Source of the DNA: Alphaproteobacteria bacterium
Lineage (GTDB): Bacteria > Pseudomonadota > Alphaproteobacteria > Thalassobaculales > Thalassobaculaceae
Assembly (NCBI GenBank): GCA_024742275.1
Contig: JANSYS010000007.1
Span: forward strand, 124,001-188,000
Direction of reading: 5' to 3'
DNA: 64,000 nt
The notes beneath the pieces were generated by a model that saw only the letters and a list, made by a program, of their open reading frames with translations, ran no database searches and was not told the origin of the DNA. Position 1 is the first letter of the stretch; each line of letters starts with the position of its first letter. Below are positions 51,181-64,000 of the stretch, piece by piece. Position numbers and translations under genes: made by a program.

Positions 51181-51750
51181 ATGCGCACGCATACCGCCGA
51201 ACGTTCAGCCCTGATTGCCGCGATGGTGGCCATCGGCCTCGTGGTCGTGGTCTCCAACATCGCCGTCGGCTACCCGATCAACGACTGGCTGACCTGGGGC
51301 GCGTTCACCTATCCGATCGCTTTCCTGGTCACAGACCTGTCGAACCGGATTCTCGGGGCCGCCGCGGCGCGGCGCGTGGTCTATGCCGGTTTTGCAGTCG
51401 GCGTCGGCCTGTCGCTTTATTTTGCCGATCCGCGCATTGCCGTAGCGAGCGGGAGTGCTTTCCTCGTCGCCCAGCTGCTTGACGTATGGATTTTCAACAA
51501 GCTGCGTCAGGGCACCTGGTGGCGGGCGCCGCTGATCTCCTCCCTGGTCGCATCGGCCGTCGATACGGCGATCTTCTTCTCGGCCGCCTTCGCCATGACC
51601 GGCCTGCCCTGGGTCACCTGGGCGCTCGGCGACTATGCGGCCAAGCTCGCCATGGCGGCGATCCTGCTGGTGCCTTTCCGGATGCTCGTCGGCCTGCTGC
51701 CGGCCGAGTGGCGGAACGCCCCGACGGAGATGCCGACCCGTACCGCCTGA
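51181..51750 (+). CDS. queuosine precursor transporter (VUT family, YhhQ-like)
   Basis: A 189-residue, six-helix inner-membrane protein. [33 protein letters not shown] and the later [18 protein letters not shown] match the VUT family, which imports preQ0/preQ1. The ATG at 51181 is chosen (GAGG 8 nt upstream); a GTG at 51172 is an alternative. queA starts 13 nt after its stop, which supports a role in queuosine precursor uptake. Confidence 0.9.
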
Positions 51751-51763
51751 GGGTCGGCGGCGG

Positions 51764-52797
51764 ATGCGCGTCGATCTTTTCGACTACACCTTGCCGGAGG
51801 AGCGGATCGCCCGCTTCCCTGCCCGCCCGCGCGAGTCGGCCCGCCTGCTTGATCTGACAGGCGGCGGGATGGCCGACCGGGTGGTGCGGGACCTGCCGGA
51901 CGTCTTGCGTCCCGGCGACCTGCTGCTGTCCAACGACACGCGCGTCATTCCCGCCCGTTTGAGAGGACGACGCGGCGAAGCCGGGATCGAAGTGACCCTC
52001 CACAAGCGCGAGGGCGAGAGCACCTGGCGCGCTTTCGCCCGCCCGGCGAAGAAACTTCGGCCCGGCGACCGGATCGTCTTCGCCGACGAGCTGGCGGCCG
52101 ACGTCTCCGCCAAGGGCGAGGCCGGTGAGGTCACACTGACCTTCGACCGGGGTGGACCCGATCTGATGTCCGCGCTGGAGGCCTACGGCACCATGCCGCT
52201 GCCGCCCTACATCAAGCGCGGGTCGGAGGAGAGCGAGAACGACTCCGAGGACTATCAGACGGTCTTCGCCGCCCGCGACGGCGCGGTCGCGGCACCGACG
52301 GCCGGACTGCATTTCACCCCAGGGCTGCTGGCCGCAATCGAGGCCAGGGGCGTTCGCCGCGCGATGGTCACCCTGCATGTCGGGGCCGGCACGTTCCTGC
52401 CGGTAAAGGTCGACGATACCGACGATCACAAGATGCATTCGGAATGGGGCGAGATTTCGCCGGCAACCGCGGCGGCCATCGCGGAGACGCGCGCCGCCGG
52501 CGGCCGTATCGTGGCGACCGGTACGACCACGCTACGGGTGCTGGAAGCGGCGGCGCGGGACGACGGCACGGTTCCGTCCTGGTCCGGCGATACCGACCTG
52601 TTCATCACGCCCGGCTACCGCTTCAAGGCGATCGACGTGCTGCTGACCAACTTCCATCTTCCGAAGTCGACCCTCCTGATGCTGGTCAGCGCCTTTGCCG
52701 GTCGGGAGAGGATTCTCGCCGCCTACGCGCACGCCATCGCCGAAGGCTACCGCTTCTTTTCGTACGGCGACGCCTGCCTATTGGAGAGGAGCGCGCC

Positions 52798-52801
<4 letters not shown>
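51764..52801 (+). CDS. queA: S-adenosylmethionine:tRNA ribosyltransferase-isomerase (QueA)
   Basis: Builds epoxyqueuosine on preQ1-modified tRNA by adding the ribosyl part of SAM. 345 residues, normal length. The start [20 protein letters not shown], then [24 protein letters not shown] and [12 protein letters not shown] are classical QueA motifs, as is [19 protein letters not shown] near the end. The ATG at 51764 fits the family; longer frames upstream overlap the transporter gene. Its stop overlaps the tgt start (GTGA). Confidence 0.97.
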
Positions 52802-53922
<1,121 letters not shown>

Positions 53923-53994
53923 GAGCGCCGAAGCGGGCAACTCCCGAGATAGGCTTTGCCGGGAAGACGGATACGGGGGAGGCACAGATCGCGC

Positions 53995-55092
53995 ATGACC
54001 GACGCACCGACCCTCGCCGACCGCATCAAGGCCGAAGCCCGAAACGCGGGATTCGACGCGGTCGGCATCGCTCCTGCCGAAATCGGCGCTCGGGAGCAGG
54101 CGCGGCTCGACGCCTTCGTCGACGCCGGACAGTATGGCGAGATGGCCTGGATGGCCGAGACCGTCGACCGCCGCCGCGACCCGAAAACCCTGTGGCCCGA
54201 GGCGCGCAGCGTCATCGTCTGCGCCATGAACTACGGCCCCGAACACAATCCGCTGTCCGATCTGGAACAGACCGACCGGGGTGTCATCGCCGCCTACGCC
54301 CGCAACCGGGACTACCACGATCTGGTGAAGAAACGACTGAAACGAATCGCCCGCTGGATGCATGCCGAACTGGGCTGCGGCGTGAAGGTTTTCGTCGACA
54401 CGGCTCCAGTGCTGGAGAAGCCTCTCGCCGCCCAGGCAGGTCTCGGTTGGCAGGGCAAGCACACCAATCTGGTCAGCCGAGATCATGGCTCCTGGCTGTT
54501 TCTGGGTGAGATCTTCACGACGCTGGAACTGCCGACCGACAGGCCGGAGACCGACCATTGCGGTTCCTGCCGGCGCTGCCTCGACATTTGCCCGACCGAC
54601 GCGTTCCCGACCCCCTATACCCTCGATGCGCGGCGCTGCATCAGCTACCTGACGATCGAGCACAAGGGTCCGATCCCGATGCAGTTCCGCGCCGCCATGG
54701 GGAACAGGATCTACGGCTGCGACGATTGCCTTGCCGTTTGCCCCTGGAACAAGTTCGCGGAGACCGCCAAGGAGGCGGCATTCGTCGCCCGCGACGACCT
54801 CACTCTACCGGCGCTCGGCGAGTTGGCCGCTCTCGACGACGCGGCGTTCCGATCCCGCTTCTCCGGCTCTCCGATCAAACGCACGGGGCGCGATCGTTTC
54901 GTCCGTAACGTTCTTATTGCGTTAGGAAACTCCGAAAACCCTGAGGCCATGAATGCGGTCGTGCCGCGATTGGATGACTCGAGCCCGCTGGTCCGCGGAG
55001 CGGCCGTATGGGCCTATCGGCGCCTGGGAGGAAAACCGCTCGACCGACCGGCGCTGGAGACGGATCCGCAGGTCCTGGCTGAATGGCGTTGA
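53995..55092 (+). CDS. queG: epoxyqueuosine reductase (QueG)
   Basis: Cobalamin- and iron-sulfur-dependent reductase making queuosine from epoxyqueuosine. 365 residues from the ATG at 53995. The N-terminal cobalamin domain carries [10 protein letters not shown] and the catalytic-region [25 protein letters not shown]; two 4Fe-4S sites are [12 protein letters not shown] and [10 protein letters not shown] with an extra Cys in ARRCISYL. The end (residues 290-365) is HEAT-like. A GGGGGAGG ribosome site is 12 nt upstream. 72 nt separates it from tgt. Confidence 0.95.
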
Positions 55093-55098
55093 TCACAT

Positions 55099-55125
55099 GT
55101 AAAATTTATTTTTGTAAATTTTTAC
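55099..55125 (+). promoter_or_regulatory. AT-rich inverted repeat before the PAS_5-queF unit
   Basis: GTAAAATTT (55099-55107) and AAATTTTTAC (55116-55125) are near-perfect inverses around an 8-nt loop, in a stretch of almost pure A/T inside a GC-rich region. It lies 6 nt after the queG stop and about 60 nt before the next gene, so it may be a promoter or operator for the PAS_5-queF pair. Confidence 0.45.
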
Positions 55126-55182
55126 TAATTCCTAATGGGACTGTCGGACACTGGCGCCTGATCAAACGAGAGGGACCGATCC

Positions 55183-55686
55183 ATGCGCGAGCGCACCACG
55201 CGGACCCACGACGGTATATGGATTCGTCCGCTGGAGGATCCGACGCAGCTTCACGACGTCCATCAGCGCGCTGTGTTCGAGTTCTGGCTTGCCGCCCGCA
55301 CAGACGAGGATATGCCGCCTCCGGCCCGAATAGACCCGATTGAGCTCCCTAAGGGCAGCTTGCCGATGATCCTGGTCAAGGAATGTGAAGCGAGCACCGG
55401 TCGCTACCGCACCCGCCTGGCCGGCACAGCCTTTCGGGAAGCCACGGGTTTCGACGGCACCCACCTCTATTCCGACAGTCTCGACGGGAGCGCCGGGACC
55501 GTAGACCGCTTCAACTGGGCGGTCGGCGAAAGGAAGCCTTATTGGTATCAGGGGTCGCTGGCGTTCAGCACAAACGACCTGAAGCAATTCAGCGTGCTAG
55601 TACTGCCCTTCGCCGAACCCGATCAACCGGTCACCCGGCTGTTGTGCGTGTTCGATTTTGACCCCGATACGGATGCGAGCCGATGA
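55183..55686 (+). CDS. PAS_5-family PAS domain protein
   Basis: A 167-residue single-domain protein. [44 protein letters not shown] and the C-terminal [11 protein letters not shown] resemble the PAS_5 family common in Rhodospirillales and rhizobia, where a ligand-binding PAS fold stands without an output domain. The stop overlaps the queF start by 4 nt (ATGA), so the two are probably made together. The link to queuosine synthesis is unexplained. Confidence 0.75.
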
Positions 55687-56150
55687 GCGACCAGACACTC
55701 TACAGCGGCCTGAACCATCTGGGTGCCACGAGCACCCTCCCCGCATCGCCGGAGGACGCCGTCCTGGAGCGTGTGGAGAACCCGCACCGGGGTACCGACT
55801 ACGTCGTTCGCTTCACCCAGCCGGAGTTCACCTCGCTCTGCCCGGTGACGGGTCAGCCGGACTTCGCGTTCCTGATCATCGACTACGTTCCCACCGATTG
55901 GCTGGTCGAGAGCAAATCCCTAAAGCTGTATCTGGGTGCTTTCCGAAATCACGGCGCCTTCCACGAGGGCTGCACCCTCGACATCGCCAAGCGGCTTGTC
56001 GATCTGCTGAGGCCGAAATGGCTGCGGATCGGCGGCTACTGGTACCCGCGCGGCGGTATGCCGATCGACGTCTTCTATCAAACGGGCGAACCGCCGGCGG
56101 GCCTATGGATCCCGAGCCAGGACGTGCCGGTCTACCGTGGACGCCCGTAG
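55683..56150 (+). CDS. queF: NADPH-dependent 7-cyano-7-deazaguanine reductase (QueF)
   Basis: Reduces preQ0 to preQ1, the substrate of Tgt. A unimodular QueF of 155 residues: the nucleophile Cys in [13 protein letters not shown], the NADPH-binding [20 protein letters not shown] and the ending [17 protein letters not shown]. It is the last of the queuosine genes and is coupled to the PAS_5 gene. Confidence 0.96.
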
Positions 56151-56470: not shown

Positions 56471-56926
56471 ATGCCTGCCGCAGCAGGACCGAACGCGAAG
56501 GGCGGCGCCCTCTCCCAGTGCCAAGCGCGGGATCTGGCCCAATTCTGCGATTTCGAGGATCAGCCCGGGTCGACCTGCCAGTTGATCGGGCAGCGGGATC
56601 TGAAAGCGGCGGGATGGGCCACGGACCGGCTGCTAGATGCCGCGGCGGCGATCACACGGGACCTGCCGGACGGCCCCGAGGACGGTCCCGAGGACGGGCC
56701 GCCACGAGTTTCCTACCTCCACCAGTTGGTCCAGTCCGCCGCTGAGGCGGGTCGCTGGGAACGGGCCGAGGCGTTTCTCGAGGACCTGCAGCGGGAGCCT
56801 CCCGTTCGCGAATCCCGATACGTCGACAGTGACGCCGTTCGGGGTTACGCGCTCCTGCGCCATTGGCTCACCGACGTCGTCGCCGCGCGCGACATCGGCA
56901 TCCCGCTTCCCACGGTGCCCGACTAG
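56471..56926 (+). CDS. hypothetical protein
   Basis: A 151-residue soluble protein starting MPAAAGPNAKGGALSQ. It contains SQCQARDLAQFCDFEDQPG, CQLIGQRDLKAAGWATDRLL and an unusual Asp/Pro repeat (GPEDGPEDGP) before a helical second half (YLHQLVQSAAEAGRWERAEA). I recognise no family. The ATG at 56471 has GAGGAAA upstream; a TTG 33 nt earlier is possible. The next gene starts 69 nt after its stop. Confidence 0.6.
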   Translation: MPAAAGPNAKGGALSQCQARDLAQFCDFEDQPGSTCQLIGQRDLKAAGWATDRLLDAAAAITRDLPDGPEDGPEDGPPRVSYLHQLVQSAAEAGRWERAEAFLEDLQREPPVRESRYVDSDAVRGYALLRHWLTDVVAARDIGIPLPTVPD

Positions 56927-56995
56927 AACGCGCGCCCTGGACCCGATGCGCGGGCCCGGTCAGGATGGGCGGGTCCAACGGAAGGCGTGTCCACA

Positions 56996-57805
56996 ATGCC
57001 CGCTCTGCCCCCCGGAGTCGTCACCGCCGACAGCGTGACCAAGCCGACCGACGCCTGGTCGGGATCGGTATTGGTCTCTGGCTCCCACGGCGGCATCTAT
57101 GCAGCCTACTGCGCCGCCAAGGCGGGCGTCCGGGCGATGATCCTGAACGATGCCGGGCGGGGGAAGGACGATGCCGGGATCGGCGGAGCCGCCTGGTGCG
57201 ACGCGCTGGGTCTGGCCTATGCCGCGATCGACACGATGTCGGCCCGGATCGGCAATGCGGAGGACATGGTGGCGCGCGGTGTGATCTCAACCGTCAACGG
57301 CATCGCTCGCGCCGTCGGGGTCGCAGAGAACCAGACGGTGATGGAGGCGGCCAGACGATTGACCTCGGCGCCAATGCCGATCACCGAGATGCCGAGCTAC
57401 GAGGAAGCGCGCATCGATCTGCCGCCCGGTCCCAGCGGTCGGCGCATCGTCCTTGCAGACTCCGCCTCCCTGCTCGGCCCCGAGGACATCGGACAGGTCA
57501 TCGTTTGCGGAAGCCACGGCGGCATGCTGGGAAACGATCCGCTTACCGCCCTCAAAGTCGACGGCTATGCGGCCTTCTACAACGACGCAGGCGGCGGCGC
57601 GGACGGTGCCGGATTTACGCGGCTTCCAGCCCTGGACGCGCGCGGAATCGCCGCCGGCACCGTCTCCGCGATGAGCGCCCGGATCGGCGATGCGCGCTCA
57701 ACATACGAAGATGGGATCCTGAGCCGCGTCAACGAAACCGCCAGACAGCTCGGCGGCACCGCCGGTATGTCGCTGAAGGAATTCGCCGCGCGCCTTGTCG
57801 CCTGA
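56996..57805 (+). CDS. internally duplicated protein with SHGG/NDAG motifs, unknown function
   Basis: A 269-residue protein made of two copies of one roughly 110-residue unit. The same three motifs recur with constant spacing: GSHGG at 29-33 and 172-176, NDAG at 51-54 and 196-199, MSARIG at 81-86 and 226-231. Between them the hydrophobic pattern also repeats (GSVLVSGSHGG versus GQVIVCGSHGG; ISTVNGIARAVG versus LSRVNETARQLG). No signal peptide or membrane helix. The Ser-His-Gly-Gly and Asn-Asp-Ala-Gly loops look like a conserved ligand or metal site. The ATG at 56996 has GGAAGG 10 nt upstream; GTG 56987 is the alternative. It lies upstream of the EthD-like and hyuAB genes. Confidence 0.75.
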   Translation: MPALPPGVVTADSVTKPTDAWSGSVLVSGSHGGIYAAYCAAKAGVRAMILNDAGRGKDDAGIGGAAWCDALGLAYAAIDTMSARIGNAEDMVARGVISTVNGIARAVGVAENQTVMEAARRLTSAPMPITEMPSYEEARIDLPPGPSGRRIVLADSASLLGPEDIGQVIVCGSHGGMLGNDPLTALKVDGYAAFYNDAGGGADGAGFTRLPALDARGIAAGTVSAMSARIGDARSTYEDGILSRVNETARQLGGTAGMSLKEFAARLVA

Positions 57806-57921
57806 ACGGCGCAACGACGTCACATTCCGTCGGCCCGTTCCAAGAATTGCCCTTGGCAGCGCCCCACCATACGGGTTGAGATCGGAGACCGTGGTCAGGC
57901 TGGGCTCCCACCTGCCGGACG

Positions 57922-57939
57922 GGTAGGCATGGTCCTACC
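57922..57939 (+). promoter_or_regulatory. short inverted repeat upstream of the EthD-like gene
   Basis: GGTAGG and CCTACC flank CATGGT, 26 nt before the ATG at 57966. A possible operator or small leader hairpin for the downstream three genes; it may be chance. Confidence 0.3.
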
Positions 57940-57965
57940 TTCATCGACCCCTGACGGAGAGAGAG

Positions 57966-58652
57966 ATGCCGCTATACGGCAAGGGCATGCTGGTCACCTT
58001 TACCGAGGTCGCCGGCGAGCACGAGGAAGAGTTCAACGAGTGGTACAACCGCGAGCACATCGACGAGCGGGTCTTCATGCCCGGGTTCAAGCGGGCGCGC
58101 CGCTACGTCGCCGCCGACGATCAGGCCAAGGTCAAATACTTCGCGACCTACGAGACGGACAGCGTCCGAGATCTATGCGCGCCGGAGTACATGAAGCTTC
58201 TCGGCGACCAGTCGCCCTGGTCGAAGAAGGTCATGGCGCTGTTCACCCATTTCGACCGGTTGACCATGGAATGCACGGTGGACTTGACCCACGGCTTCAC
58301 CGGCGCCGCCGGACTAGCCCGGTTCTTTCCCGCCGATGCACAGAAAGCCGCACTCCGCGAAGCGCTTGCAGAAAAGTTCCTTCCCGAAGTGGTGAAACGC
58401 CCCGGCGTTCTTGGTGCCTGCGTGCTCGAGAACGACCTCGACGTCGTGGCCGAGGGCATCAAGGCCCAAGGCAAACCGATCCCGGACGGCATGAAGCAGG
58501 AATGGCTGGTCATCCTCGACACCGACACGCCGACGACGGCGACCTCGGCCCTGGAGTCAGTCTTCGGCAACGACGTCCTGCAGCCGTTCGACCTTCCCTC
58601 CTCCGCCGTAGACGCCTCCGGCTACTTCATGACGTTCGGCAATCAACGCTAA
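57966..58652 (+). CDS. EthD-like dimeric alpha/beta-barrel protein
   Basis: A 228-residue protein with two ferredoxin-like halves. The N-terminal FNEWYNREHIDERVFMPGFKRARRY resembles the E-W-Y-x-x-E-H motif of EthD and related small barrel proteins, followed by YFATYETDSVRDL. The second half (from about residue 110) repeats the fold pattern more loosely. A GGAGAGAG ribosome site precedes the ATG. hyuA follows after 10 nt, so it is probably part of the same transcript and may act on the same compound. Confidence 0.7.
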   Translation: MPLYGKGMLVTFTEVAGEHEEEFNEWYNREHIDERVFMPGFKRARRYVAADDQAKVKYFATYETDSVRDLCAPEYMKLLGDQSPWSKKVMALFTHFDRLTMECTVDLTHGFTGAAGLARFFPADAQKAALREALAEKFLPEVVKRPGVLGACVLENDLDVVAEGIKAQGKPIPDGMKQEWLVILDTDTPTTATSALESVFGNDVLQPFDLPSSAVDASGYFMTFGNQR

Positions 58653-58662
58653 CGGAGCGCGC

Positions 58663-60714
58663 ATGTCCTGGTTCATCGGTGTCGATGTCGGCGGCACGTT
58701 CACGGATTTCTATGCGGTCGACCGCGAGACCGCGCAGGTTGTCGTCCATAAAACGCCATCGACACCGCACAACCCGGCGGAAGCGATCCTCGAGGGACTC
58801 GACGCATTGTCGACGGCAAACGGGATCAAGGCGGACGCGATCACCCGGTTGGCGCACGGTACCACCGTTGCAACCAATGCCCTGATCCAGCGAAAAGGAG
58901 CACCGCTGGCGCTGATCACCACCGAAGGGTTCCGCGATCTCTTGGAGATCGGACGGCAGATCCGGCCGAAAATGTACGACCTGAAAGCCGACGCACCGCC
59001 GCCTCTGGTTCCGCGCAAACACCGCTTCGAGGTGCGCGAGCGGATGATGGCGGACGGCACACCCCGTATCGCCCTCGAAGAGTCTGCGATCGATGCGGCG
59101 ATCGACCAAGTGGCGGCGTCCGGCGCCGAGGCCGTGGCGGTGTGTCTTCTCTTCGCGTTTCTCAACCCGGAGCACGAGCAGCGGATCGGTAGACGGCTGG
59201 CGGAGAGGTTGCCGCATGTGGCGGTCTCGCTGTCGAGCGCGGTTCAGCCGGAATTCCGGGAGTTTGAACGGTTCTCGACCGCCGCGCTGAACGCTTATCT
59301 ACAGCCTCTGATCGGGCGGTATATGCGTCACTTGGGGAGGGAGTTGGAGGAGCGGGCACCGAACGCGCGCCTAGGCATCAACCAGTCGAGCGGCGGGCTG
59401 ATGTCCGTCGACCGGGCGGCCGACTTCCCGGTGCGCACAACCTTGTCGGGGCCTGCGGCCGGAGCGGTGGGCGCCGCCCATGTGGCGCGGCTGGCCGGCA
59501 AGCCGAACGTGGTAACGCTGGATATGGGCGGCACCAGTGCCGATGTGGCGCTGATTCGCGATTTCGAAGCGGAGATCGGCTTCGGGCGCGACGTCGCCGG
59601 ATTCCCGGTGCGCCTGCCGATAGTGGACGTGGATACGGTGGGCGCGGGTGGTGGCTCCATCGCGTGGTTCGACCGCGACGGACTTCTCAAGGTCGGACCG
59701 GCGTCGGCCGGCGCAGTACCGGGTCCGGCCTGCTACGGCCGCGGCGGAACCGAGCCAACCGTATCGGACGCCAATCTTCTGCTCGGCCGACTGTCGGGCA
59801 CCCTGATCGGCGGCGCGATGGCTCTGGACCGGAGCCGCGCCGAAAAAGCTATCCGACCCGTCGCCGAGCGGCTGGGCTTCACCCTTGAAAGGACTGCGGA
59901 GGGTATTCTCGGGATCGTTACGGCGAATATGGTCCGCGCCCTGCGAACCGTCTCTGTGGAGCGCGGTCACGATCCGCGCGATTTCGTTCTGATGCCGTTC
60001 GGCGGCGCCGGGGCTCTACACGCCGGAGACGTCGCCCGCGCATTGGACATGTCGGAGATCATCATCCCACCGGCGCCGGGAATTCTCTGCGCCCAAGGTC
60101 TCGTGGTCTCCGATCTGAAGGAGGACTTCGTGGCCACCGCCCGCCTGTCTCTGACCGATGCGAACCGAGCCGCAATCGATGCAGCCGTCGCGCCGTTGGC
60201 CGCCTCAGCTCGGGCTTGGTTCGAGACCGAAGGGATCGCACCGGCGCGGCGACGCCTACGGCTGTCGATCGATCTGCGCTATATAGGCCAGAACTTCGAA
60301 CTTCTGGTGCCGACGGATGAGACCGACGGCTCGGACCCGGCCCTGCCCGAGATCGGAGAACTGAAGCGCCGGTTTTTCGAGGCCCACGAAAAGACCTACG
60401 GCCACTACACCGCAGACGACCCGATCGAGACGGTAAATCTGCGACTGACGGCAATCGGCGAGGCCGATCGCATTCCTCCCCCGGCAGCAGAAGGCGACAA
60501 CAACCGGCATCCAAAGCCGACGACACATCGGGCGGTCTGGTTCGAAGGTGCGGAGCATCATACCCCGGTCTATGACCGCGCCGCGCTGGCACCCGGTCAT
60601 CGCTTCGTCGGTCCCGCCATTGTCGATCAGCTCGACGCCACGACCGTCGTCCACCCCGGCGACACTGTCTCGGTCGATGCCGCCCTGAACCTGATCATCG
60701 AGGTGTCGAAATGA
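58663..60714 (+). CDS. hyuA: hydantoinase/oxoprolinase subunit A
   Basis: A 683-residue subunit of an ATP-dependent hydantoinase/5-oxoprolinase-type amidohydrolase. The ASKHA ATP motif is GVDVGGTFTDFYAVD at the start, then LAHGTTVATNALIQRKG, LSGPAAGAVGAAHVARLAG, TLDMGGTSADVALI and MPFGGAGALHAGDVARAL. It normally works with HyuB, whose gene overlaps this stop by 4 nt. The substrate (hydantoin, N-methylhydantoin, oxoproline or another cyclic amide) cannot be told from the sequence; acetone carboxylase-like enzymes are related but have a third subunit, absent here. Confidence 0.94.
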   Translation: MSWFIGVDVGGTFTDFYAVDRETAQVVVHKTPSTPHNPAEAILEGLDALSTANGIKADAITRLAHGTTVATNALIQRKGAPLALITTEGFRDLLEIGRQIRPKMYDLKADAPPPLVPRKHRFEVRERMMADGTPRIALEESAIDAAIDQVAASGAEAVAVCLLFAFLNPEHEQRIGRRLAERLPHVAVSLSSAVQPEFREFERFSTAALNAYLQPLIGRYMRHLGRELEERAPNARLGINQSSGGLMSVDRAADFPVRTTLSGPAAGAVGAAHVARLAGKPNVVTLDMGGTSADVALIRDFEAEIGFGRDVAGFPVRLPIVDVDTVGAGGGSIAWFDRDGLLKVGPASAGAVPGPACYGRGGTEPTVSDANLLLGRLSGTLIGGAMALDRSRAEKAIRPVAERLGFTLERTAEGILGIVTANMVRALRTVSVERGHDPRDFVLMPFGGAGALHAGDVARALDMSEIIIPPAPGILCAQGLVVSDLKEDFVATARLSLTDANRAAIDAAVAPLAASARAWFETEGIAPARRRLRLSIDLRYIGQNFELLVPTDETDGSDPALPEIGELKRRFFEAHEKTYGHYTADDPIETVNLRLTAIGEADRIPPPAAEGDNNRHPKPTTHRAVWFEGAEHHTPVYDRAALAPGHRFVGPAIVDQLDATTVVHPGDTVSVDAALNLIIEVSK

Positions 60715-62417
60715 GTGCCAAGAGCAAGGCCGCCGGACCGGACCCGATCACCACCGAGATCGTCTTCAACGCACTCCAATCGGTGGCGGACGAGAGTTTC
60801 GTGGCGCTGATGAAAAGCGCTTATTCCACCAACATCAAGGAACGGCACGATCATTCCACGGCGATCGTGGACAGGACAGGACGATTGGTGGTCCAGGCAT
60901 CCGGGTCGATTCCGATTCACCTCGCCTCGATGCTGGGATTGATGCAGAAGCTGCTGGCGAAATACCCGCTCTCCGAGATCCATGAGGGCGACGTATTCTG
61001 CGCGAACGATCCGCATGTTGGCGGGGGCACACACCTGCCCGACGTCAATCTGGCAATGCCGGTCTTCGCCGATGGCGAACTGGTCGGCTTCGTGTGCAAC
61101 ATCGCACATCATGCGGATGTCGGCGGGATGTCCCCAGGTTCGATGGCCGGTGGGATGACATCGATCTATCAGGAAGGGCTGCGAATCCCACTCATCAAGC
61201 TGTTCAGGCGTGGGCAGTTAGACCAGGACCTGTTCGACCTGATCCTTCTCAATGTGCGAGTCGTGGAGGAGAGGCGGGGCGACTACAACGCTCAGTTCGC
61301 CGCCCTTCGTCTGGCTCACCGACGCCTCCTAGACATCATCGACCGCAACGGCCGCGACACCGTGTCGGCGGTTTTCGACGGCATCATCGAGCGAACCTAT
61401 GCCCGAATGAAGGAAAGCATCGCCGCGATCCCCGATGGCACTTACCGGTTCGAGGACTTCATGGACAATGACGGGGCCGGGCTGGACGACATCAGGATCG
61501 CGCTTGCCGTCACCATCGACGGCGACAACGCCGTGTTCGACTTCACCGGCACTCAAACGCAGGTACCCGGCAATGTGAACATCCCTCTGAATGGAACGAT
61601 CGCCGCCGTGTGCTACGTCCTGAAGGCCATGCTGGATCCGGAGATACCGAACAATCATGGGGTCATCGACGCGGTGACCGTGACAGCTCCATCCGGAACG
61701 GTGGTGAGCTGTGTCGAGCCGGCCTCCGTGGCGTCCCGGGCGCATACCTCGCAGCGCATCGTCGATGTGGTGATCGGGGCGCTGGCAGACGCGCTCCCGG
61801 ACAAGGCGGTCGGGGCGGCGAATGGGGCGAACTCGATGGCGATCTTTGCCGGGACCGATCCGCGGTCCGGGCGGCCGTATGTTTATCTCGAGACTCTCGG
61901 GGGTGGGTTTGGCGGTCGGAACGACCGCGACGGGAAAGACGGGGTACAAGTCCACATCACCAACACCTCCAACCTGCCTGTCGAAGCAATCGAGATGGAG
62001 TACCCGTTGCTGGTCGAAGCCTACGGCCTGATCGAGGATTCCGGAGGGGCTGGAACCTGGCGCGGAGGCCTCGGCCTGCGCCGAGTTGTGACGCCGGTCG
62101 ATCACGACTGCGTCTTCACAGGGATCGGAGAGCGCTTCCGCCACCAGCCCTGGGGCGTGTTCGGCGGAAAACCAGGCGGATCCGGGAAGTTCTCGTTAGA
62201 GACCCGCGACGGCGCCATGCGGGAGATGCCGACGAAGTTCGGGGACGCCCTGCTGCGCGAGGGGGAGCGGGCGATTGTGGAAACGCCGGGCTCCGGCGGC
62301 TATGGACCGCCGGAGGGACGCCTGACTGAGACCCTGACGGAAGACTGGGACTCGGGGAAGTTCAGCGCTGGGTACATGCGCAGGCACTACGATTGGGTAC
62401 CGCCGTCCAGGGATTGA
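60711..62417 (+). CDS. hyuB: hydantoinase/oxoprolinase subunit B
   Basis: A 568-residue partner of HyuA. Family motifs: ERHDHSTAIVDRTGRLVVQA, CANDPHVGGGTHLPDVNLAMP, the metal-rich HHADVGGMSPGSMAGG, and VEAIEMEYPLLVEAYGLIEDSGGAG. Length is typical. The start is coupled to hyuA. The last 31 nt overlap, tail to tail, the first gene of a phage-like minus-strand module; the C-terminus (AGYMRRHYDWVPPSRD) seems intact. Confidence 0.94.
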   Translation: MSAKSKAAGPDPITTEIVFNALQSVADESFVALMKSAYSTNIKERHDHSTAIVDRTGRLVVQASGSIPIHLASMLGLMQKLLAKYPLSEIHEGDVFCANDPHVGGGTHLPDVNLAMPVFADGELVGFVCNIAHHADVGGMSPGSMAGGMTSIYQEGLRIPLIKLFRRGQLDQDLFDLILLNVRVVEERRGDYNAQFAALRLAHRRLLDIIDRNGRDTVSAVFDGIIERTYARMKESIAAIPDGTYRFEDFMDNDGAGLDDIRIALAVTIDGDNAVFDFTGTQTQVPGNVNIPLNGTIAAVCYVLKAMLDPEIPNNHGVIDAVTVTAPSGTVVSCVEPASVASRAHTSQRIVDVVIGALADALPDKAVGAANGANSMAIFAGTDPRSGRPYVYLETLGGGFGGRNDRDGKDGVQVHITNTSNLPVEAIEMEYPLLVEAYGLIEDSGGAGTWRGGLGLRRVVTPVDHDCVFTGIGERFRHQPWGVFGGKPGGSGKFSLETRDGAMREMPTKFGDALLREGERAIVETPGSGGYGPPEGRLTETLTEDWDSGKFSAGYMRRHYDWVPPSRD

Positions 62418-63495: not shown

Positions 63496-64000
63496 CTAGA
63501 GACCGAGCGCGTAGAAGGCGCCTAGCGTAACGGCGTAACTCTGCAAGTTCGCGGCGTTGAGGATTGAATACTCATTCGCGTTCAAATCTGCCGTCAACAT
63601 TGGAGCCGGGTCCAACTGGATCGCACGTACCACCATGAAGGGATGACCAATCACCCAATCGGCCGCCACGCCTCCGGTCGACGCGATGGTAGCGTCGATG
63701 ACCAACGCATGACCGACGAACGAGCTCACGGTTCCGACGACGAAGACAGTCAAATCCGAAGCGCTGGCGGCGCGAACCAGGGTCCCCACCGGCAGGAAAA
63801 CATCGTCCGCATGCTGATGGGTCGTCAGAGTTACCTGACCGACCTCGGCGAAGAACCCCGTGGACGACGTCGCATACACACCGGATATGGACGCGCCCAT
63901 CTCGGCGACCGATCTCAGGATTGCCGGGAGACCGCTGGACTCGTCGGCATAAGCATTTCCCTCCACGTTCGCCTGGGTATAGGTCGTTCCGGCGATAGTG
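63496..64000 (-). CDS. phage-like structural (tail) protein, 5'-truncated at the window edge
   Basis: The frame is open from the window edge to a stop at 63496, so its start lies beyond 64000. The visible part, including TYTQANVEGNAYADESSGLP, is Thr/Ala/Val-rich and beta-type, as in tail-fibre or baseplate proteins. A GTG at 63966 could be read as a start, but similarity in composition continues through it. Confidence 0.55.
   Translation of the reverse strand, partial: TIAGTTYTQANVEGNAYADESSGLPAILRSVAEMGASISGVYATSSTGFFAEVGQVTLTTHQHADDVFLPVGTLVRAASASDLTVFVVGTVSSFVGHALVIDATIASTGGVAADWVIGHPFMVVRAIQLDPAPMLTADLNANEYSILNAANLQSYAVTLGAFYALGL

Follow-up and report, generated by a model that had tools for sequence, protein, structure and literature searches.

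The gene at 56996-57805 of the window, by which we mean the whole 64,000-nucleotide stretch of alphaproteobacterial DNA analysed here, encodes a protein that is an internal duplication of a single-domain ancestor, its halves being true copies of each other. Across its relatives the gene travels mainly with a trio of genes for thiamine-dependent (ThDP) carbon-bond enzymes rather than with hydantoin genes, which points to an undescribed pathway for the breakdown of acids. The family is unnamed in the libraries that we searched, and we found no description of it in the literature searched. The features discussed below are as follows:

56996..57805, + strand: duplicated protein, 269 aa plus stop, from ATG
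56996..57379, + strand: half 1 (residues 1-128), with D12, S30-H31-G32-G33, N51-D52-A53-G54, R84-I85-G86, G95 and N101
57380..57442, + strand: linker, present once only, with E137 (97/102 rows) and R139 (93/102)
57443..57802, + strand: half 2 (residues 150-269), with D155-S156, S173-H174-G175, N196-D197-A198-G199, A228-R229-I230-G231, G240 and N246
57966..58652, + strand: 228-aa gene, called "EthD-like" in the earlier note; Pfam DUF4286 at 26.9 bits (cut-off 25.8), ABM weak
58663..60714, + strand: hyuA, with Hydant_A_N, Hydantoinase_A and Hydant_A_C; a local, not general, neighbour
60711..62417, + strand: hyuB, with Hydantoinase_B; a local, not general, neighbour

An alternative in-frame GTG at 56987 would add three residues, and the ATG is preferred because the GGAAGG at 56980-56985 suits it. 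Scanning 56800-58800 for promoters and terminators turned up nothing promoter-like; two weak terminator-like sites were seen, both on the other strand. Three motifs occur in each half, SHGG at residues 30 and 173, NDAG at 51 and 196 and MSARIG at 81 and 226, and their offsets of 143, 145 and 145 residues are those from which the earlier note had read a duplication. Alignment of one half with the other upholds that reading, with a raw BLOSUM62 score of 168 over about 120 residues that was reached by none of 2000 shuffles (mean 34.7, sd 6.5, maximum 72). The secondary structure predicted in the full-length AlphaFold model follows the same order of elements in both halves, at offsets of 143-148. 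Free-standing half-size homologues also exist (L024 and L129, 131 and 134 aa), so a single domain either came first or can stand alone.

Conservation was scored over 102 rows. Most of these (73) come from an alignment of the window protein with its counterparts in 72 of the 80 best loci, the best of at least 458 relatives found in a scan of genome contigs and, being picked by similarity to the window protein, not evenly drawn; the others are 26 rows of a further alignment (A1), partly from the same organisms, and three divergent members. The 73-row alignment leaves out three loci with an in-frame stop in the match (L055, L066, L093) as well as L037, L040, L079, L099 and L101. The histidines and aspartates that the earlier note expected to be conserved are nearly so throughout, with H31 in 99 rows, H174 in 101, D52 in 98 and D197 in all 102, and the serines of SHGG are equally constant (S30 in 102, S173 in 100). 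The Asn of NDAG is more variable (N51 in 79/102, N196 in 75/102). N101 is found in 101/102 rows and N246 in 102/102, and G95/G240 and A104/A249 are in all 102 each. Paired positions are not all equally constrained, D12 being kept in 85/102 rows versus 100/102 for D155. Positions invariant in the 73-row alignment include S30, H31, D52, G61, G95, N101, A104 and E137 in half 1 and the linker; in half 2 they include D155, S156, S173, H174, G175, D197, A198 and R209, followed by I230, G231, S235, G240, N246, A249 and G257. Among the divergent members, L033, L034 and a paralogue in genome G195 have Tyr at the H31 position, and the G195 paralogue has Ala at the H174 position.

Near-invariant Ser-His, Asp, Ile-Gly, Asn and Gly positions thus coincide in both halves, in agreement with the two equivalent sites proposed in the earlier note. 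In the model, D12/D155, S30-H31/S173-H174, N51-D52/N196-D197 and N101/N246 are placed at the end of a strand, in its final two residues or immediately beyond them. This position of the conserved residues at strand ends in the element list suggests a predicted crest of site residues in each half.

The AlphaFold models have a pLDDT of 96.4 for the full-length protein and 96.3 for half 1 alone, with the same order of elements. When VIA-align was used for a second look at the top 1000 of Foldseek, the best solved match was TA1206 (PDB 1qw2) for both queries: residues 130-268 of the full model matched it with Z 8.4 at 3.2 A over 95 of 102 residues, and the half 1 model with Z 7.8 at 4.0 A over 85 residues. 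The runners-up reached Z 5.2 and 5.5, respectively, so 1qw2 stands about 2 to 3 higher, at a level near 8 that can arise without kinship. Foldseek itself returned no match at E <=0.001 for the full model or for half 1, and 1qw2 had E 1.8 for the whole model. 1QW2 is described in PMC9425974 as a COG3377/DUF1805 protein linked to Trm11, and a DUF1805-like query of ours also identifies 1qw2 as a DUF1805 protein.

The sequence searches meet the same family, at weak scores. DUF1805 is the Pfam family most often matched at E <=1, by 22 of 27 members and by 26 of 71 halves (71 of the 74 prepared halves, from 37 of the 73 rows), and several of these matches span at least 50 of the 64 profile positions, in one or the other half. 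The window protein scores 19.0 bits against DUF1805 (PF08827), under the gathering cut-off of 29.5 bits. That cut-off is passed by three of 20 singly scanned relatives, L033 (31.7), L002 (31.1) and L016 (30.7), by summed stretches of which no single one reaches E 0.01. Passing a Pfam cut-off is no proof of DUF1805 kinship here, because five of the same 20 relatives pass that of the unrelated IMS family, the Y-family DNA polymerases (cut-off 23.2 bits; L034 36.2, L013 27.6, L033 26.0, L011 24.2, L016 23.8). The DUF1805 matches often take in most of the profile, at the same place in either half, whereas the IMS matches do not. An hhalign comparison with eight DUF1805 proteins aligned no more than the C-terminal 34-37 columns, a third of the repeat, at probabilities of 52% and 36%; the better run covered the last 34 columns at E 1.4e-4. 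There are also differences. The eight aligned DUF1805 proteins are 84-100 residues long versus about 120 for each half of the window protein, they lack the SHGG and NDAG motifs that the window protein has, and the window protein is duplicated, unlike DUF1805/YunC proteins. Kinship with DUF1805 is likely, though not settled, and we would describe the window protein as DUF1805-like in fold without assigning it to DUF1805.

The earlier note could not place the protein in a known family, and this stands: the window protein falls under every Pfam and NCBIfam cut-off, and its NCBIfam match is one of chance. Among the 73 members, NCBIfam gave four families, with a best E of 1.2e-4 and at most two members each. 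No credible solved relative was found by sequence, and nothing speaks for a phage origin, with no match among 50,697 phage records and a best PHROGs E of only 0.028. The IMS domain was matched by 19 of 27 members at E <=1, and Foldseek aligned about 28 residues to a Y-family polymerase at 1 A. We rejected kinship with these polymerases, as only about 30-50 of the 148 IMS profile positions match and the remaining domain is absent. Residues 72-125 do resemble a beta-alpha piece of Y-family DNA polymerases in both sequence and backbone, which is likely a recurring local structure.

DUF1805 genes have a setting of their own on plasmids. Eight plasmids were examined, and on four of them, three conjugative and one mobilizable, a DUF1805/YunC gene lies just before a histidine kinase/ATP-binding phosphorelay gene (L118:3057-5875, L119:3965-5822, L124:3084-5801, L125:3078-5821), with a divergent response regulator. 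A PAS-domain gene stands ahead of DUF1805 in three of these four, and in L119 a transposase takes its place. The arrangement suggests a sensory role in plasmid transfer for these kinase-adjacent genes. The remaining four plasmids are all from Bacillota; L120, L121 and L122 have other neighbours and L123 is without annotation.

In the window, the 228-aa gene and then hyuA and hyuB follow on the same strand, in the positions that the earlier note gave. Its use of the hydantoinase genes as a general clue to function is not supported, however. In the 80 best loci, tblastn found hyuA near the gene in six and hyuB in five, both together in only five (L036, L037, L038, L041, L087), four of which are close relatives of the window; the L037 protein is 79% identical to the window protein. 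The 228-aa gene is a same-strand neighbour within 3 kb in 13/80, and amidase genes occur in 8/80. On a quick tree with long branches and loci of unequal length, from which L037 was left out, hyuAB is found in all but one of the five rows in the window's clade (the window, L036, L038 and L041; support 96) and in L087, which lies elsewhere, requiring 3 changes. HyuA/HyuB hydantoinase-oxoprolinase operons adjoin the gene on its downstream side in the window and in a small number of relatives; they are not general partners. Upstream, the gene is preceded by queuosine genes at about 51750-56150, QueF-like by Pfam and tgt, queG and queA by reading, and the window's queG has a same-strand match within 3 kb in 11/80 best loci. 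An opposite-strand gene downstream (63496-63966, - strand) is conserved in the window, L037, L038 and L040; its window and L038 copies gave no Pfam match at E 0.01.

The commonest partners, though of different protein families, are ThDP enzymes: an acetolactate synthase-like (ALS-like) enzyme and the E1 pair of a 2-oxo acid dehydrogenase. By tblastn (E <=1e-10, 40% coverage, so that paralogues can enter the counts), ALS-like genes were near in 48 of the 80 best loci, E1-beta in 45 and E1-alpha in 43, with ALS-like or E1-alpha in 60; an SDR gene was near in 22. These counts are quoted first because our simple gene caller overlooked the target gene at 19 of the 81 loci. Its own clusters, over the 81 loci including the window, contained ALS-like genes in 39, E1-alpha in 36 and E1-beta in 28, at median identities of 65%, 60% and 68%. 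Where flanks were complete (34 loci), at least one ThDP gene was present in 27, the exceptions being L037, L040, L058, L061, L074, L085 and L114. On the same tree the ThDP neighbours are scattered over all parts, with 15 changes.

Co-occurrence across genomes follows the same line. Of 240 genomes sampled from the class, 24 have the gene, one of them as a single half. With cut-offs of 1e-85 for E1-alpha and 1e-130 for ALS, set so as to separate orthologues from paralogues present in the window's genome, an ALS-like orthologue was found in 21 of the 240 and an E1-alpha orthologue in 19. All 19 of the latter genomes also have the ALS-like gene, and all 19 have the window-type gene, versus 5 of the 221 others. 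This co-occurrence spans 14 family codes (Fisher p 6e-24, which ignores kinship, the 240 genomes not being independent). The gene has ALS-like or E1-alpha within 12 kb in 16 of these 19 genomes; the remaining three, which include the window's genome, are draft assemblies in which the genes sit on separate contigs. The gene occurs without an ALS-like or E1-alpha orthologue in G011, G066, G081, G196 and G200 (the single half), one of these five genomes being only 77% complete, and the ALS-like gene occurs without the window-type gene in G053 and G087.

In the window's genome, which has one copy of the gene, ALS-like, E1-beta and E1-alpha form a trio on a contig other than that of the window gene (C27:53268-57204), behind genes that we took, by eye, for methylmalonyl-CoA mutase and MeaB (L141:7266-16679, G000:C27). 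Pfam confirmed the E1 and ThDP domains. No E2 gene lies near this E1 pair; the three E2 matches of the genome are on C38, C48 and C17, and the two other E1-alpha matches are on C38 and C17, so the pair on C27 seems to be without an E2 of its own. The C27 trio can be regarded by itself as an orphan ThDP module.

Members found in other settings share a theme, which is the catabolism of small acids. Two haloarchaeal members adjoin a RuBisCO-like gene and an acid-sugar kinase gene, with TRAP transporters, and another member from the class has RuBisCO-like and acid-sugar kinase genes plus a PGDH_C dehydrogenase. For two distant members, L031 and L149, the adjoining kinase and RuBisCO-like genes have OiaK or OiaX as their best NCBIfam models. 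The likeness to an OiaK/OiaX-type acid-sugar pathway lies in these neighbour genes, and the 3-oxo-isoapionate pathway is not established there because all four scores (536, 454, 446 and 505 bits) are below the curated cut-offs of 700 bits. CoA-pathway genes surround the Rhizobium and Rhodococcus members, and neither the haloarchaeal nor the Rhizobium members have an annotated hyu gene nearby. A Ponticoccus member, which has a DnaA-type gene on one side and PQQ dehydrogenase genes on the other, adds nothing to the acid theme. A phylum search with a profile at E 1e-6, with few candidates scored per genome, found it in 4 of 299 sampled genomes, counting the window's own and one half-size copy, and it is on 13 of 72,556 plasmid records, five of them haloarchaeal, with Rhodococcus plasmids also represented. 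The member on an Aminobacter plasmid (L033:7779-8729) begins with a stretch resembling a twin-arginine signal (MNRRIFLGS...), so one branch of the family may be exported.

What the protein does can be approached from these data with some caution. Since we found no homologue with a known activity, enzymatic action is something we infer, and the reading that we tentatively favour is that of an enzyme that readies an oxo or hydroxy acid for the ThDP enzymes, an Arg holding its carboxylate and His and Asp shuttling protons. The nearest competitor, unlikely in our estimate while deserving some weight, is a ligand-binding or regulatory protein whose two sites sense an oxo acid or a nucleotide and regulate either the ThDP enzymes themselves or their expression. 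The kinase-adjacent position of DUF1805 genes, the nearest fold relatives, on half of the eight plasmids is in its favour; the pattern was not seen on the other four, however, and no DNA-binding or transmitter family was matched among the 27 members scanned. Regulators are moreover already at hand at the loci, with HTH_IclR in 5 and IclR_C in 6 of 82 scanned neighbours (82 of the 119 neighbour genes within two places, 195 being within three, after the ThDP, hyu, 228-aa, tgt and queG clusters had been set aside), and the near-invariant Ser, His, Asp, Arg and Asn at the predicted strand ends look catalytic.

The Ser-His of SHGG, near-invariant in both halves, might instead be taken to indicate a lactonase or other hydrolase, as might a gene read as SMP-30/lactonase-like near the L149 member, for which NCBIfam gave only a sub-cut-off ScyE-family match. 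We consider this improbable. In a nucleophile elbow the Ser is not directly followed by His, whereas in SHGG it immediately precedes it; the three divergent members have replaced H31 by Tyr; and Abhydrolase_6 matches are weak (8 of 71 halves at E <=1, best 0.011). Very improbable, finally, is the idea put forward in the earlier note, that the protein acts with HyuAB in binding or opening a cyclic amide or its product. It can appeal to the same-strand order with hyuAB in the window, L036, L037, L038 and L041 and to the few loci with amidase genes. The rarity of loci with both hyu genes (in L087 on the opposite strand), the spread of the more common ThDP neighbours over the tree, and the sugar-acid or CoA-pathway settings of the haloarchaeal and Rhizobium members all argue against it, and we found no pointer to ring opening.

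Based on the enzyme reading, we can present a rough proposal. The protein would be a head-to-tail fusion of two TA1206/DUF1805-like alpha/beta domains, both carrying the same crest, formed by conserved residues at the C-terminal strand ends, and it would take part in degrading small oxo or hydroxy acids. For the majority of sampled relatives it would serve as the non-thiamine partner of the module of ALS-like and E1-alpha/E1-beta enzymes, which in the window's genome would work with no E2 gene beside the E1 pair. An imported or generated acid would be converted to a 2-oxo or acyloin form, the substrate of the ThDP enzymes; the SARIG arginine could grip the carboxylate while the His of SHGG and the Asp of NDAG shift a proton, as in a keto-enol isomerase, an isomerase or tautomerase type of chemistry being the one we would expect. 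In the window's lineage, the gene has come to adjoin the DUF4286-like gene and hyuAB, which may supply the substrate by amide hydrolysis. More cautiously still, the protein could form, together with the E2-less E1-alpha/E1-beta pair and the ALS-like enzyme, an undescribed four-protein route that splits or joins the carbon chains of oxo acids, with a DUF1805-type fold acting as a two-site enzyme.

We found no described function for the DUF1805 fold (TA1206) in the literature searched, and a function here would give a first handle on it; the two-site enzyme reading, if true, would as far as our searches show be the first function for this fold. The unnamed family, in turn, gains a testable context in the ThDP module, and we would regard it as a known fold that occurs here in duplicated form and in a new gene setting.
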